Source: Porphyromonas pasteri
GTDB lineage: Bacteria > Bacteroidota > Bacteroidia > Bacteroidales > Porphyromonadaceae
Length of the DNA stretch: 64,000 nt
Reading direction: 5' to 3'
Assembly (NCBI RefSeq): GCF_014647755.1
Contig: NZ_BMPU01000001.1
Span: 434,001 to 498,000, forward strand
Made by a program: the position numbers and the translations under genes. Numbering within the stretch: position 1 is the first letter of the stretch; every line of letters starts with the position of its first letter. This document shows positions 765-54,896 of the stretch, in pieces. Below the pieces are notes generated by a model that saw nothing but the letters and a program-made list of their open reading frames with translations, ran no database searches and was not told where the DNA came from.

Positions 765-838
765 CACAATAGACCTCAGTTAGCCTGCTTTTGAGCTGAG
801 AGTTACAGAGCCCCCACATCAAAATCTCCTCCTCATTT

Positions 839-966
839 GAGACCATTGCGCAAGGCCATCTCTTCACAACTTGCACTTTCCTCCTTCGAACTTCCCAGCC
901 AAAATCTTCCGATTTCCGAGGGAAGAAGGTACGAGTAATGAAGAGGTCGTCTTGCGTAATGGTCTC
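839..966. repeat. Terminal long hairpin of element copy A
   Basis: The left arm GAGACCATTGCGCAAGG (continuing to TCTTC at 865) pairs imperfectly with the right arm 940-966, which ends CTTGCGTAATGGTCTC. The two arms are about 27 bases and enclose about 75 bases. The same hairpin is present intact in copy B (12105-12231), lacks its far arm in copy C, and is mostly deleted in copy D. Confidence 0.75.
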
Positions 967-993
967 ATATATTGGTTGAGTACGTGGGTAGAG

Positions 994-1111
994 CTATGTA
1001 GGATGGTGAAGAAAGCTATATAGCTTTGGACTGATTCCTATATAGCTTTGCTTGGATTCCTATATAGCTTTGCTTGGATTCCTATATAGCTTTCGGTGCG
1101 AAGCTATATAG
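994..1111. repeat. Six-unit CTATATAG palindrome array, 22-bp pitch (copy A)
   Basis: Self-complementary cores begin at 994 (variant CTATGTAG), 1016, 1038, 1060, 1082 and 1104, exactly 22 bp apart. The fullest units read AAGCTATATAGCTTT; middle units read TTCCTATATAGCTTTG. Spacers vary between units. Copies B, C and D have five, three and two units at the same pitch. Confidence 0.85.
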
Positions 1112-1190
1112 CTTTGTGAAGTGACCTCTATTAGTTTGTTGCTCCGCATAGGGATAAAAGTTGCGGACGAGTGGGAGATAAGTTTGGGCT

Positions 1191-1262
1191 ACGTACGTGA
1201 ATCTAATATCTACGTACGTGGATATTTGGACTGACGTACCTGGTCTTTAAGACTACGTGCGT
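1191..1262. repeat. Four-unit ACGTACGT palindrome array, 21-22-21 pitch (copy A)
   Basis: Cores begin at 1191, 1212, 1234 (decayed to ACGTACCT) and 1255 (ACGTGCGT). The 21-22-21 spacing is identical in the arrays at 11828, 20328, 35169 and 54635, although the core bases drift. Conserved spacing with drifting sequence suggests that positions on the helix matter. Confidence 0.85.
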
Positions 1263-1461
1263 AGACAGAGGAAGACCACTACATGAAGACGCTTTTTCCT
1301 TCACGAGAAGGACACTTTCTCCTCCGCTGGATAAGAGGAATACTCGCGATAAGGCGAAGGGCTTGCCTGACCACTTCGGAGAGGTATATCGGGGGGGACC
1401 GGGCGTGTGATGCCTTAGCGCTCTAAATAGAGGACAGGACTCGCGGCAACAGTCTCCATTT

Positions 1462-9664: not shown

Positions 9665-11452
9665 TTAGTCAAGCTTGAGGACTGCGAGGAAGGCCTTCTG
9701 AGGCACCTCGACCGTACCGATCTGCTTCATGCGCTTCTTACCTTCCTTCTGCTTCTCGAGGAGCTTACGCTTACGGGAGACGTCACCACCATAGCACTTA
9801 GCGGTCACGTCCTTACGTACAGCCTTGATGGTCTCACGAGCGATGACCTTAGCACCAATAGCAGCTTGGATAGCGATGTCGAACTGCTGACGTGGGATGA
9901 GCTCCTTGAGCTTCTCACACATGCGGCGTCCGAAAGCCACGCTGTTATCGACGTGGGTCAGTGTCGAGAGGGCATCCACAGGATCTCCATTGAGTAGGAT
10001 ATCAAGCTTGGCAAGCTTTGAGGGACGGAAGTCACTGATGTGGTAGTCGAAGGAAGCATAGCCTTTCGATACACTCTTCAGCTTGTCGTAGAAGTCGATG
10101 ACGATCTCACCCAGGGGCAGATCAAAGAAGATCTCGATACGGTCGCCCGAGATGTACTCCTGCTTGATGAGCTGCCCACGCTTACCGAGGCAGAGCGTCA
10201 TGATAGGACCGATGTAGGCGGTATTTGTGATGACCGATGCACGGATATAAGGCTCCTCGATGTGGTCAATCGTCGTGATGTCGGGAAGCCCCGAGGGGTT
10301 ATGTACCTCCTTGCAGACGCCCTTCTTGTCGTAGACCTTGTAGGATACGTTGGGGACGGTCGTGATGACATTCATACCGAACTCTCGGTCGAGTCGCTCC
10401 TGAATGATCTCCATGTGCAGGAGCCCAAGGAAGCCGCATCGGAAGCCGAAGCCAAGAGCGATGGAGCTCTCGGGCTGGAAGGTCAGCGAAGCATCGTTCA
10501 GCTGGAGCTTCTCCAGCGAAGCACGGAGGTTCTCAAAGTCTTCGCTCTCGATAGGGTAGAGCCCTGCGAAGACCATGGGCTTCACTTCCTCGAAGCCAGC
10601 GATAGCTTCCAAAGCACCACCATTGACATGCGTGATGGTATCCCCGACCTTAACCTCACGGCTTGTCTTGATACCCGAGATGATATAGCCCACATCCCCC
10701 GTAGAGACCTCCTTGCGTGGCTCCATATCGAGGCGCAGTACGCCGACTTCATCAGCGTCATACTCCTTGCCCGTAGCGATGAACTTCACGTGGTCACCCT
10801 TACGGATCTTACCATTCACCACCTTGAAGTAAGCGATGATACCGCGGAAGGGGTTGAAGACTGAGTCAAAGATCAAGCACTGCAGAGGTCCTTCGGGATC
10901 GCCCTTAGGAGCAGGGATACGCTCGACGATTGCACGGAGGATGTCATCGACACCCAAGCCCGTCTTACCGCTGGCCCGGATGATCTCCTCACGCTTGCAG
11001 CCAAGGAGCTCGATGATCTGATCCTCGACCTCTTCGGGCATAGCACTTGGCAGGTCTACCTTATTGATGATAGGTATGATCTCAAGGTCATGCTCGAGAG
11101 CCATATAGAGATTAGAAATCGTCTGTGCCTGAATACCCTGAGCTGCGTCGACGATAAGCAGGGCACCTTCGCATGCAGCGATAGAGCGGGAGACTTCGTA
11201 GGAGAAGTCCACGTGCCCTGGGGTATCAATCAGATTGAGTACGTAGTCCTCACCATCGAGCTCGTAGTTCATCTGGATGGCGTGGCTCTTAATGGTGATC
11301 CCGCGCTCGCGCTCGAGATCCATATTATCGAGTACCTGCTCCTGAAGATCCTTCCCAGAGACGGTCTGCGTCGTCTCCAGCAAGCGGTCAGCCAGGGTAC
11401 TCTTCCCATGGTCGATATGGGCTATAATGCAAAAGTTACGTATATGCTTCAT
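9665..11452 (-). CDS. lepA: Elongation factor 4 LepA, 595 aa
   Basis: Ribosome-associated GTPase that back-translocates or rescues stalled ribosomes. The G1 motif [10 protein letters not shown], switch [17 protein letters not shown], and NKVD G4 are all present, followed by the LepA-specific C-terminal domain (ending [17 protein letters not shown]). The frame stays open 60 codons upstream, but [15 protein letters not shown] at 11452 matches the family N-terminus, and a TATCTTTG box lies eight bases in front of it. That makes a very short leader and rules out the longer reading. First gene of a seven-gene operon running to aminopeptidase P. Confidence 0.97.
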
Positions 11453-11460
11453 CTTGATTA

Positions 11461-11468
11461 CAAAGATA
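11461..11468 (-). promoter_or_regulatory. lepA operon promoter -7 box TATCTTTG
   Basis: The minus strand reads TATCTTTG, matching TAnnTTTG, eight bases before the chosen lepA ATG. The predicted transcript would have almost no leader. The next six genes have gaps of 5 to 34 bp and show no other clear promoter, so this probably drives all seven. Confidence 0.6.
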
Positions 11469-11634
11469 CTACTAAGACGGGGAAATAGCCCTATACTTAG
11501 GCACATCCACAGAGCTTCCACGGCAAAATCCCCAAGTGACCTCCTACGGGCCTCCTGAGAACTCTTACCGAAAGGGGAATTTTTCCACAAATCGCAGCTC
11601 ACAGCACAAGGCTCAGAGGAGCTAACCCTCAAAC

Positions 11635-12231
11635 GAGACTGTTGCCTTAGAGTCCTGCCCGCTATTTAGAGTGCTAAGGTATCGCACGCCCAGTCCCCCG
11701 ATATGCCCCTCCGAAGAGGTCAAGCAAGCCCTTCGCCTTATCACTAGTATTCCTCTTATTCAGCGGAGAGAGAAGTGCCCTTCTCATAAAGAAAAAAGCG
11801 CCTTCACGTAGTGGTTTTCCTCTGTCTATGCACGTAGATTTAAAGACCAGGCACGTAAATCCAAATATCCACGTACGTAGATATTAGAACCACGCACGTA
11901 GCCCAAACTTATCTGCCACTCGTCCACCACTTTTATCCCTGTGCGGAGCAACAACCTAATATAGGTCACGTCACAAAGCTATATAGCTTCGCGCCGAAAG
12001 CTATATAGGAATCCAAGCAAAGCTATATAGGAATCAGTCCAAAGCTATATAGCATTCTTCGCCATCCTATATAGCTCTACGCCACGCACCCATATACCTA
12101 TTATGAGACCATTGCGCAAGACCACCTCTTCATTACTCGACCTTCTTTCCTCGAAAATCGGAGCCTTTAGGCTGAGACGTTCGAAGGAGAAAAGTGCAAG
12201 CTGCGAAGAAATGGCCTTGCGTAATGGTCTC
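11635..12231 (-). mobile_element. MITE-like element copy B (inverted)
   Basis: Same element as copy A, in the opposite orientation. On the plus strand it starts GAGACTGTTGCC and ends GCGTAATGGTCTC, so both terminal repeats are intact. It holds the right domain (GAAAAAAGCGCCTTCACG), a four-unit ACGTACGT array (11828, 11849, 11871, 11892), a five-unit CTATATAG array (11979, 12001, 12023, 12045, 12067) and the intact long hairpin (12105-12231). The flanks CAAAC and AAAAT do not form a convincing target duplication. It separates lepA from mutS2 and fills this gene-free stretch. Confidence 0.72.
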
Positions 12232-20128: not shown

Positions 20129-20657
20129 GAGACTGTTGCTGAGAGTCCGGCCCTCTATTTAGAGTGCTAAGGCATCACACGCCCAGCTCACACCGATATG
20201 CCTCTCCGAAGGGATACGCAAGCCCTTCACATTATCATTATCGCGCGCATTCTTCTTATCCAGCGGAGGGAAAAGTATCCTTCTCATGAAGAAAAAAGCG
20301 CCTTCTCGTAGTGGTTTTCCTCTGTCTACGTACATAGTCTTAAAGACCAGGCACGTAAATCCAAATATCCACGTACGTAGATATTAGGACCACATACGTA
20401 GTCCAAACTTATCTGCCGCTCGTCCATAACTTTTATCCCGACGCAGAGAAACAACCTAATAGAGGTCACTTCACAAAGCTATATAGGGATCAGTCCAGAG
20501 CTATATAGCTTTCTTCACCATCCTATATAGATCTACCCACACACCCATATACCGATATATGGGACCATTGAGCAAGCGGACCTCTTCATTACTCGTTCCT
20601 TCTTCCTTCGGAAATCGGAGCCTTTAGGCTGAGAAGTTCGAAGGGGGAATACGTGAA
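20129..20657 (-). mobile_element. MITE-like element copy C (inverted, hairpin end truncated)
   Basis: Same orientation as copy B. It starts GAGACTGTTGC with the conserved right domain, then the four-unit ACGTACGT array (20328, 20349, 20371, 20392) and only three CTATATAG units (20479, 20501, 20523). The first arm of the long hairpin is present (GGACCATTGAGCAAG), but similarity ends near 20657 inside the hairpin, so the outer terminal repeat is lost. It lies about 160 bp upstream of the DUF4476 lipoprotein genes and probably shapes their upstream region. Confidence 0.65.
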
Positions 20658-34666: not shown

Positions 34667-35054
34667 AGACTTACGATCTGTAATATCTGTAGGACTTTAA
34701 TACTGCACGCTACAGGTGTGCGGTGTAAAGATACAAATTATAATGGGCGACCCTACATAGAAAGGTGCTCTCACAGTATGATGTACGGCCTTCACAAGGT
34801 CCAAGGGAAGGACCTCCTCCCACCATAGGAAGAGCCGCAAGCGACCCACACGAAGGGCAGAAGCGAAGTTGCTCCTTCTCCTCTTCTATTCCGTTAAAGT
34901 AACGCGACTAAGCACCGTGGTCTGAGGAGGCGAATTCGGCACCTAACCAAGACGTATACGTTTCGTGCCTGAAACGTATACGTTCTGCTCCGAGAGCCCA
35001 TACCGAGTCCTCCCTCCCCTTGCCCTAAGCCCCTCCAGCGAGATGCCGTGCAAA
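34667..35054. other. Gene-free stretch with a two-unit palindrome pair
   Basis: No convincing gene or RNA. ACGTATACGT occurs at 34952-34961 and 34974-34983, 22 bp apart, with a TTTCGTGCCTGAA spacer, matching the seven-unit array at 41094 and the pair at 12235. Confidence 0.6.
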
Positions 35055-35435
35055 GGTCTCATATAGCTTTCTCTTCATTCCTATATAGCTTTGTTAAGTG
35101 ACCTATGTTAAGATTGTTGCTCTGCGTAGGGATAAAAGTTGTGGCCGAGTGACAGATAAGTTTGGACTACGTACGTAGCTCTAATATCTACGTGCGTGGA
35201 TATTTGGATTTACGTGCCTGGTCTTTAAGACTACGTACATAGATAGAAGAATACCACTGCGTGAAGACGCTTTTTCCTTCACGAGAATGGCACTTTTCCC
35301 TCCGCTGGATAAGAGGAATACTCGCGATAAGGCGAAGGGCTTGCGTGTCGCTTCGGAGAGGCGTATCGTGGGGCTGGGCGTGCGATGCCTTAGCACAATA
35401 ATAAATAGAGAGCAAGGGCTCCGCGCAACATCCTC
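35055..35435 (+). mobile_element. MITE-like element copy D (internally deleted)
   Basis: Same orientation as copy A. The hairpin domain is reduced to GGTCTC at 35055-35060, and only two CTATATAG units remain (variant at 35059, perfect at 35081). The four-unit ACGTACGT array (35169, 35190, 35212, 35233) and the right domain are well kept, ending near GCGCAACATCCTC. The pepO promoter begins 46 bp downstream. Confidence 0.65.
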
Positions 35436-41054: not shown

Positions 41055-41093
41055 TATGAAGTAAAATGCCATCTACGAGCGATTTAGAGCAAG

Positions 41094-41235
41094 ACGTATA
41101 CCTTCCACAAGCGAGACGTATACGTTTCGCAGACAAAACGTATACGTCTTACGGTGAAAACGTATACGTTTCGAGCTTAAAACGTATACGTCTTGGGCAT
41201 GAAACGTATACGCTTTGCCCAGACAAGGTATACGT
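41094..41235. repeat. Seven-unit ACGTATACGT palindrome array, exact 22-bp pitch
   Basis: Cores begin at 41094, 41116, 41138, 41160, 41182, 41204 and 41226. The middle four are perfect ACGTATACGT; the outer three are degenerate. Each core is flanked by AAA on the left and TTTCG or TCTTG on the right, while about six central spacer bases vary. It lies between a terminator and the ddl promoter, in a 422-bp gene-free stretch. Related pairs are at 34952 and 12235. Confidence 0.9.
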
Positions 41236-41363
41236 ATCACTCATCCCTATAGCCTCACGCATGCTTAAAGCCATACTGCTTCCCCGTAGAAACCCAGAGC
41301 ATCATTATGCAGAGAAGAGCTACGTCACCACACCACGGGGTGGGTTTTCAGCTGTGAAAGCTG

Positions 41364-54484: not shown

Positions 54485-54634
54485 GGCAAATGCTACGAAG
54501 CATAGAGAAAGCGCTCCCGATCCTATGCATACCACAAGATCAAATAGCTATTGTAAGTAGCTGGATACGCATACAGATAGAGTCGCAGATCTACAGAAAA
54601 GAAGTCCTGCACCAGTAGCTGTAATCCGCTATCT

Positions 54635-54706
54635 ACGTGGGTAGTCCTAAAGTCTACGTGCATAGATGACAAGTTCTCTGTACATAGATTTTAAATCCAC
54701 GTACGT
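54635..54706. repeat. Stand-alone four-unit ACGTACGT array (copy E)
   Basis: Cores begin at 54635 (ACGTGGGT), 54656 (ACGTGCAT), 54678 (CTGTACAT) and 54699 (ACGTACGT): 21-22-21 spacing as in the mobile-element copies, each followed by a TAG. No terminal repeats or hairpin surround it. It lies 246 bp upstream of the TonB receptor gene, in a 557-bp gene-free stretch. Confidence 0.8.
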
Positions 54707-54896
54707 AGATATAACTTTTCTCGTAGAGCTATGAAGGAAATGCTGCTTAAGGATGGAGGAAATGCACCTCGACTTGATATGCTTAATCAATGCTCCAGCA
54801 CCCATTATTAGGTATATAATAGAGGTACTTACATCTACCCTATACCTACATCTATGTATTTTGCAAAGGAGTAAGAGGAGGGGGCTATGAATGGCG

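Follow-up and report, generated by a model that had tools for sequence, protein, structure and literature searches.

The window, a stretch of 64,000 nucleotides from Porphyromonas pasteri, contains four mutually homologous copies of an element of about 600 bp, at 839–1456 (copy A, plus strand), 11635–12231 (copy B, minus strand), 20129–20657 (copy C, minus strand) and approximately 35050–35435 (copy D, plus strand). The copies are 83–89% identical to one another in ungapped pairs of at least 220 bases, their BLAST alignments to copy A give 84–86% identity, and only short ORFs, without a transposase, are found within them. An earlier note on this DNA had described four homologous copies, A and D in one orientation and B and C in the other, and this is confirmed in the sequence. 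The imperfect inverted ends of copy A, GAGACCATTGC / GCAACAGTCTC, and the CATTT on both sides of it, which it had also listed, are present as well; the CATTT at 834–838 and 1457–1461 is a 5-bp target duplication.

Copy A is a complete composite of three parts. The leader (839–966) is a 128-bp inverted repeat, each arm of which is 83–84% identical to the right end of an IS5-family IS. It is followed by an internal 22-bp array with the core CTATATAG (967–1131; 3.5 units with 92% matches at 1016–1093) and by a tail MITE (1132–1456), of which the left TIR is decayed and the right TIR is GCAACAGTCTC. A second array with units of 21–22 bp (CTACGTACGTGG) lies inside this tail, from approximately 1189. 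Copy B is also a complete composite (leader 12105–12231, array approximately 11958–12104, tail 11635–11957) without a clear duplication, as three of five bases agree. The LepA ORF listed at 9665–11632 starts with TTG adjoining copy B; since in 24 relatives the match to lepA does not set in before query base 156–196, the true start of LepA is probably further in. The earlier note had called two copies truncated, which holds for C and D, both left-truncated composites. Copy C retains a leader remnant at approximately 20551–20649, an array and a tail at 20129–20457, and copy D has the right end of the leader (35050–35060), about two array units and a tail at 35111–35435. The start of copy D had to be moved to approximately 35050, because the leader ends on its right with GCAAAGGTCTC at 35050–35060. 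Arrays also stand free of the element in the window: 22-bp palindrome arrays with the core ACGTATACGT are present upstream of copy D (34952–34983, two units) and at 41087–41242, and an array of the CTACGTACGTGG type, related to the one inside the tail and devoid of tail ends, is present at 54613–54721. At least 12 weak profile matches similar to the latter occur elsewhere in the same genome.

The genome comprises 2,166,795 bases in nine contigs. Searching it with copy A returned at least 65 BLAST matches, the best 40 of 139 candidates having been scored. A conserved 26-mer of the tail was found at 93 places with up to three mismatches, 50 of them exact, and the reversed pattern, used as a control, gave no match in the same genome. 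With a 132-position profile of the tail, at least 129 matches at E ≤ 0.01 were obtained among the best 130 of 872 candidates; at least 102 of these reach 74 bits or more when counted by hand, and many of the weaker ones span only the middle of the tail. The prediction that four copies in the window would mean many in the genome was therefore right. From these places 94 tails were analysed, namely 93 of the 102 strong profile places and one weaker place. They fall into 14 copies with a leader, three with a leader remnant, 44 with an array and no leader, 28 tail-only copies and five unclassified ones, with one copy (L126) being of the array type by the classification rule and tail-only by eye. 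Composites measure 471–666 bp and tails 317–330 bp, with imperfect 11-bp TIRs. Under a crude ORF model, 81 of the 94 tails are free of overlap with the chosen neighbouring ORFs, and a predicted ORF extends into the element in the other 13.

Outside this genome, the tail profile gave no match in 25 other genomes of the genus, with the best 130 candidates scored in each, and BLAST with copy A returned short pieces of leader or array only, in two of 40 relatives (G021 and G014). An exact 23-mer scan of genome contigs, in which records near this genome were possibly left out, found nothing; viral contigs had no match to an exact 23-mer, and plasmids none to copy A. By lepA identity, G014 (87%), G011 (86%) and G021 (83%) can be placed relative to the P. 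pasteri genome. Both flanks could be found for two of the 94 loci in 763 kb from two relatives, where the intergenic DNA was not alignable. The earlier note had held that hits always at orthologous loci, with no empty sites, would speak against mobility. The distribution found is a different one, as the tail occurs in none of the 25 other genomes and is missing from the only two orthologous intergenic regions of the nearest relative that could be matched by their flanks.

A candidate source of transposase, which the earlier note had proposed to look for, is present in the genome. It is an IS in two copies of 1323–1325 bp with 93% mutual identity, each with an intact ORF of 370–372 amino acids and the TIRs GAGACCATTGC / GCAATGGTCTC. 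Its transposase belongs to the IS5 family (NF033581, E 2.9e-69, with 233.6 bits where the cut-off is 140) and carries the domains DDE_Tnp_1 (PF01609) and DUF772 (PF05598). One of the two copies sits within a 22-bp array and is flanked by a TATAT duplication. The second is found where a broken tail copy ends on its right side (L137 / L105, G000:C3 at approximately 247,000); the tail does not continue in the other flank of this IS copy, which points to an IS-linked deletion or rearrangement. A PF01609 search of the genome returned three hits, the third being a degenerate DDE_Tnp_1 without such ends, and no IS with a tail-type TIR was found in this search of one transposase family. A relative of the IS in G022, with 57% amino acid identity, carries GAGACTGTTGC, a TIR of the tail type, and is flanked by a TATTG duplication; both TIR variants thus occur among related ISs.

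The leader can be traced to this IS. Positions 52–128 of the leader of copy A correspond to the right end of the IS at 84% over 77 bp, and positions 1–48 to the same right end, inverted, at 83% over 48 bp. The match of the left end of the IS to the leader is confined to the 11-bp TIR. As both arms derive from one IS end in inverted orientation, the leader is best understood as a small palindromic IS derivative, and it has a TIR pair of its own. Beyond the IS ends, the leader was found at 18 places in the genome, 17 of which adjoin a tail; the remaining one has no tail nearby and its ends are poor. Between 2 and 10 array cores separate leader and tail in the 17 copies with a leader or remnant, the anchor for L069 being a poor one.

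The tail makes up the right 323 bp of the composite, and it is also found alone, with the TIR GAGACTGTTGC at both ends and with 5-bp duplications. In six leaderless tails (L076, L093, L095, L112, L126 and L133) the left end reads GAGACTGTTGC, with at most one change, and is an inverted counterpart of the right end GCAACAGTCTC. Exact 5-bp duplications flank four of the six (AATAT at L076 and at L126, TACTG at L133, CGTAG at L093); at L112 four of five bases agree, and L095 has none. Two further tail-only copies, L064 and L099, have exact duplications despite a decayed left TIR, a feature that a simple model leaves unaccounted for. TATTAGGTTGTTGC, near an array palindrome, forms the left end of the tail in many other copies.

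Duplications also flank the composite as a whole. Among the 12 composites with both outer ends, five have exact 5-bp duplications (CTTAT, ATATT, ATATT, CCCTT and CATTT) against a mean of 0.58 when flanks were re-paired, with none of 10,000 shuffles as good, and a length of five alone peaks among the duplication lengths. The other seven have no exact duplication, including L057, where four of five bases agree, and L067, which is ambiguous within an AT repeat. For the leaderless copies the count is 6 of 48 against 1.42 under the null, again with none of 10,000 shuffles as good; lengths of two and four also match (11 and 6 cases), as expected of TATA-rich flanks.

The surroundings of the right ends suggest where these elements land. 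An array-type half palindrome lies within a few bases of 31 of the 60 intact right ends, against 93 of 1735 control positions entering a half palindrome, the motif having been written after some of the flanks had been inspected. As right ends meet half palindromes far above the control, arrays appear to be landing sites. When the element and one duplication were removed, an array-type palindrome, taken as 5 of 6 pairs around a central TA, was restored in 7 of the 11 cases with an exact duplication, comprising five of the six leaderless cases and two of the five composites.

The unit of about 600 bp is a MITE by definition: it lies within 50–1000 bp, has no transposase, has TIRs and a target duplication, and a related autonomous IS is found in the genome. 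More specifically, we read it as a chimeric MITE, a non-autonomous composite of the IS5 type, and give this reading, together with the history proposed for it, a probability of roughly 0.7. An IS5 transposase would act on the TIRs of both variants. IS5-type MITEs would land in array palindromes, so that a tail MITE could end up in the same array as a leader MITE. Joint use of the outermost ends would then move the composite with the captured array between them. Recombination between array units within the element and others beyond it could afterwards remove the leader and give rise to leaderless copies. The earlier view of the copies as decaying mobile elements stands insofar as they are MITE-like, lack a transposase, moved in the past with 5-bp duplications and are partly decayed. 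It was incomplete in missing that two MITEs and an array make up the chimeric unit, that the tail has been mobile alone, and that the arrays, which belong to a wider class, are the targets.

Retention of the element for a host function is compatible with mobility, and as an account of the tail it is a doubtful yet serious one. It would make the middle of the tail, with its CTACGTACGTGG array, a protein-binding or promoter block. The 26-mer is exact in 36 of 71 tails against 7.7 expected from the mean divergence and 27.1 from its own site rates; the array region of the tail diverges by 0.066 against 0.088 elsewhere (P 7e-5), and the minimum window has a P of 0.027 by site shuffling. However, site-rate variation or gene conversion could yield equal conservation, so that the lower divergence of the tail middle may reflect selection, site-rate variation or conversion. 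Nor is there a single gene arrangement around the 94 copies, of which 31 lie between divergent genes, 50 between genes in the same direction, 10 between convergent genes and three are one-sided (raw counts from the crude ORF model). A structured RNA was rejected: compensatory changes affect 4 of 80 predicted pairs, no covariation is seen (covariation term −1.83 kcal/mol, 26 tails), and the window has no Rfam match.

It is less probable, and on balance unlikely, that the MITE was ancestrally the full 600-bp unit, as was assumed for BrickBuilt, and that all shorter copies are deletion derivatives. Deletion would give the 44 of 94 copies with array and tail but no leader, and the three that keep only the inner part of the leader. 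The tree of 71 tails does not set the tail-only copies apart either. It is star-like, copies with a leader, array-only and tail-only copies are not grouped in it (19 and 14 changes), and mean pairwise tail identity is 0.865–0.874 in every comparison of classes. The same star shape leaves a single origin of the composite without support, and a single clade for composites was rejected. Allele linkage, compared between tail-only and other copies, showed no significant difference (P 0.31). What counts against an ancestral 600-bp unit is the set of six tail-only copies with the left TIR GAGACTGTTGC or one change, four of them with exact duplications, since deletion would create neither a left TIR nor duplications. 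The leader, moreover, has its own TIR pair and derives from a single IS end. Spread by homologous recombination or gene conversion among the 22-bp arrays, with tail and leader carried along, would suit the many leaderless left junctions seen by eye at the shared TATATAG core of the array units and the scatter of classes across the star tree, but it is very improbable, as conversion does not produce 5-bp duplications and several duplicated insertions have no array palindrome (copy A CATTT, L059 CTTAT, L085 CCCTT, L093 CGTAG). In the preferred reading, that of a chimeric MITE, the burst looks old, given that tails differ pairwise by about 13% and that the closest pair among the 71 compared is 94.7% identical.

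The arrays themselves extend beyond the element. The pattern CCWRTAYWGGT-N10-ACCWRTAYWGG was found at 148 places in the P. pasteri genome, at none in 25 other genomes of the genus and at none in the control. Pairs of ACGTATACGT at a 22-bp pitch are present in 5 of 26 genomes, this one and four others of the genus, and free CTATATAG arrays without leader or tail, 80–85% identical to the array of the composite, occur in G021 and G014. In ten sampled relatives (1.56 Mb), identical 9-mers are found 22 bp apart at 76 places and 23 bp apart at 39, against 3–14 places for other distances between 14 and 31 that are not multiples of three and 29–65 for multiples of three, the last being probably due to coding. 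One of these two pitches is prominent in nine of the ten Porphyromonas relatives, in one of them weakly: 22 bp in G011, G041, G020, G022, G017 and G010, and less clearly in G014 (with 23 equally high), 23 bp in G021 and G013, and neither in G001. Other Bacteroidales (1.01 Mb) show a small rise, with 15 places at each of the two distances and 3–14 at the neighbouring ones. A palindrome arm of at least five was found in 16 of 115 such places of the ten relatives against one in shuffles; palindromes are thus enriched, yet most units are not perfect palindromes.

The cores of the arrays change between species. As judged by eye, G011 holds many arrays (L288–L307) with the core TGAGGGATATCCCTCA at a 22-bp pitch, unlike the cores of the P. 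pasteri genome, and G020 (L333–L337) and G017 (L343–L347) have 22-bp arrays with the core CCACGTGG, along with a TTCCAAGGGAGGAAC type. At the G014 orthologue of L063, where the P. pasteri genome has an array and a tail, there is an array with the core CCTACGGTAGG and a 23-bp pitch. A role of the arrays as terminators between convergent genes was rejected, as one of 20 arrays lies in such a position by the crude ORF model, and so were hairpins with matching spacers (P 0.19 in a strict set of six five-unit arrays). In L310, L311 and L319 the outer spacers are complementary, and the whole five-unit arrays could fold back. No description of such arrays, or of a two-MITE origin, was found in literature that is for the most part outside subscription journals. 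Tentatively, and with the odds below even, these repeats could form a dispersed, undescribed class of Porphyromonas arrays with units of 22–23 bp and, in this clade, palindromic cores, in which the core changes between species at nearly constant pitch and different cores may stand beside the same gene at one locus. They would be putative sites at which a dimeric protein binds DNA along one face of the helix, its specificity shifting between species; IS5-type elements would land in the palindromes and MITEs would capture pieces, a possible source of minisatellite MITEs such as BrickBuilt. Two observations lower the odds: the pitch of the array at the orthologous locus is 23 bp, and strong palindromes are few among the units of the relatives. 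The near-fixed pitch and the changing cores raise a separate question, that of what reads the arrays.

Set against known systems, a number of about 100 copies is large without being exceptional: over 120 copies are given for Correia elements and up to 711 for ERIC in the accessible part of PMC10969869. The closest parallel in plan is BrickBuilt, a MITE of P. gingivalis and P. gulae with 19 copies, a 23-bp repeat of the consensus AGAYCATARTATCCTCTCRTRTG and duplications of variable length and sequence; 22-nt tandem repeats are mentioned in strain W83 (PMC4596501, available sections). BrickBuilt shares with the element the order of leader, tandem repeat and tail, the intergenic location, the many truncated copies, a related genus and TIRs of the IS5 type (GAGACC.../...GTCTC). 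It differs in its 19 copies against about 100 here, and the available sections of that paper do not state a composite origin for it. The earlier note had raised the possibility of one family; this does not hold, as the repeat is of 22 bp here against 23 bp and the sequences are unrelated. The best match of AGAYCATARTATCCTCTCRTRTG has nine mismatches in copy A and seven in the window, whereas as a control it matches 12 times with 0–2 mismatches in one stretch of G041, and copy A matches one BrickBuilt locus over no more than 12–16 bases, so that homology of leader or tail was also rejected. In G041 (L328, 18471–18748), the majority of the BrickBuilt 23-mer units hold GAGACCATAG, near the IS TIR, and the array is self-complementary (263 bp at 71%). 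The P. pasteri element is an IS5-type MITE, composite variant, and not BrickBuilt.

MITEPgRS/MITE464 of P. gingivalis resembles the tail in its TIRs, GAGACTGTTGCA / TGCAACGGTCTC, which are the tail variant, and in having a tandem repeat, but this repeat is of 41 bp, and the comparison with the tail is by description only (PMC4596501, Table 2 and other parts at hand). According to the same portions of that paper, the IS5-family elements ISPg1 and ISPg9 have the left TIR GAGACCATTGCA, identical to the leader end, and ISPg4 has CGCAACAGTCTC, identical to the tail end (PMC4596501). All three are autonomous ISs, unlike the composite, and the IS found here is of the IS5 family as well. Full-length relatives of that IS in G041 are 52–56% identical to its transposase, and broken ones 77–87% in pieces.

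A minisatellite within a Porphyromonas MITE was described in 2015, and no mechanism for the joining is given in the available sections (PMC4596501). What is new here is the composite build and the tie to a wider array class. In P. pasteri the parts are visible apart, as an IS, a leader made of an IS end, a tail mobile alone, free arrays and the chimera, and the origin of a minisatellite MITE thereby becomes testable; the element may illustrate a possible route for minisatellites into mobile elements. Palindromic repeats serve as landing sites in other bacteria too. IS1397 inserts into BIMEs, and the likeness to the arrays here lies in the palindromic target. IS1111 inserts into QMITE2, as described in the accessible part of PMC10969869. 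The difference from both systems is that the palindromes of P. pasteri seem to have been incorporated into the moving unit.
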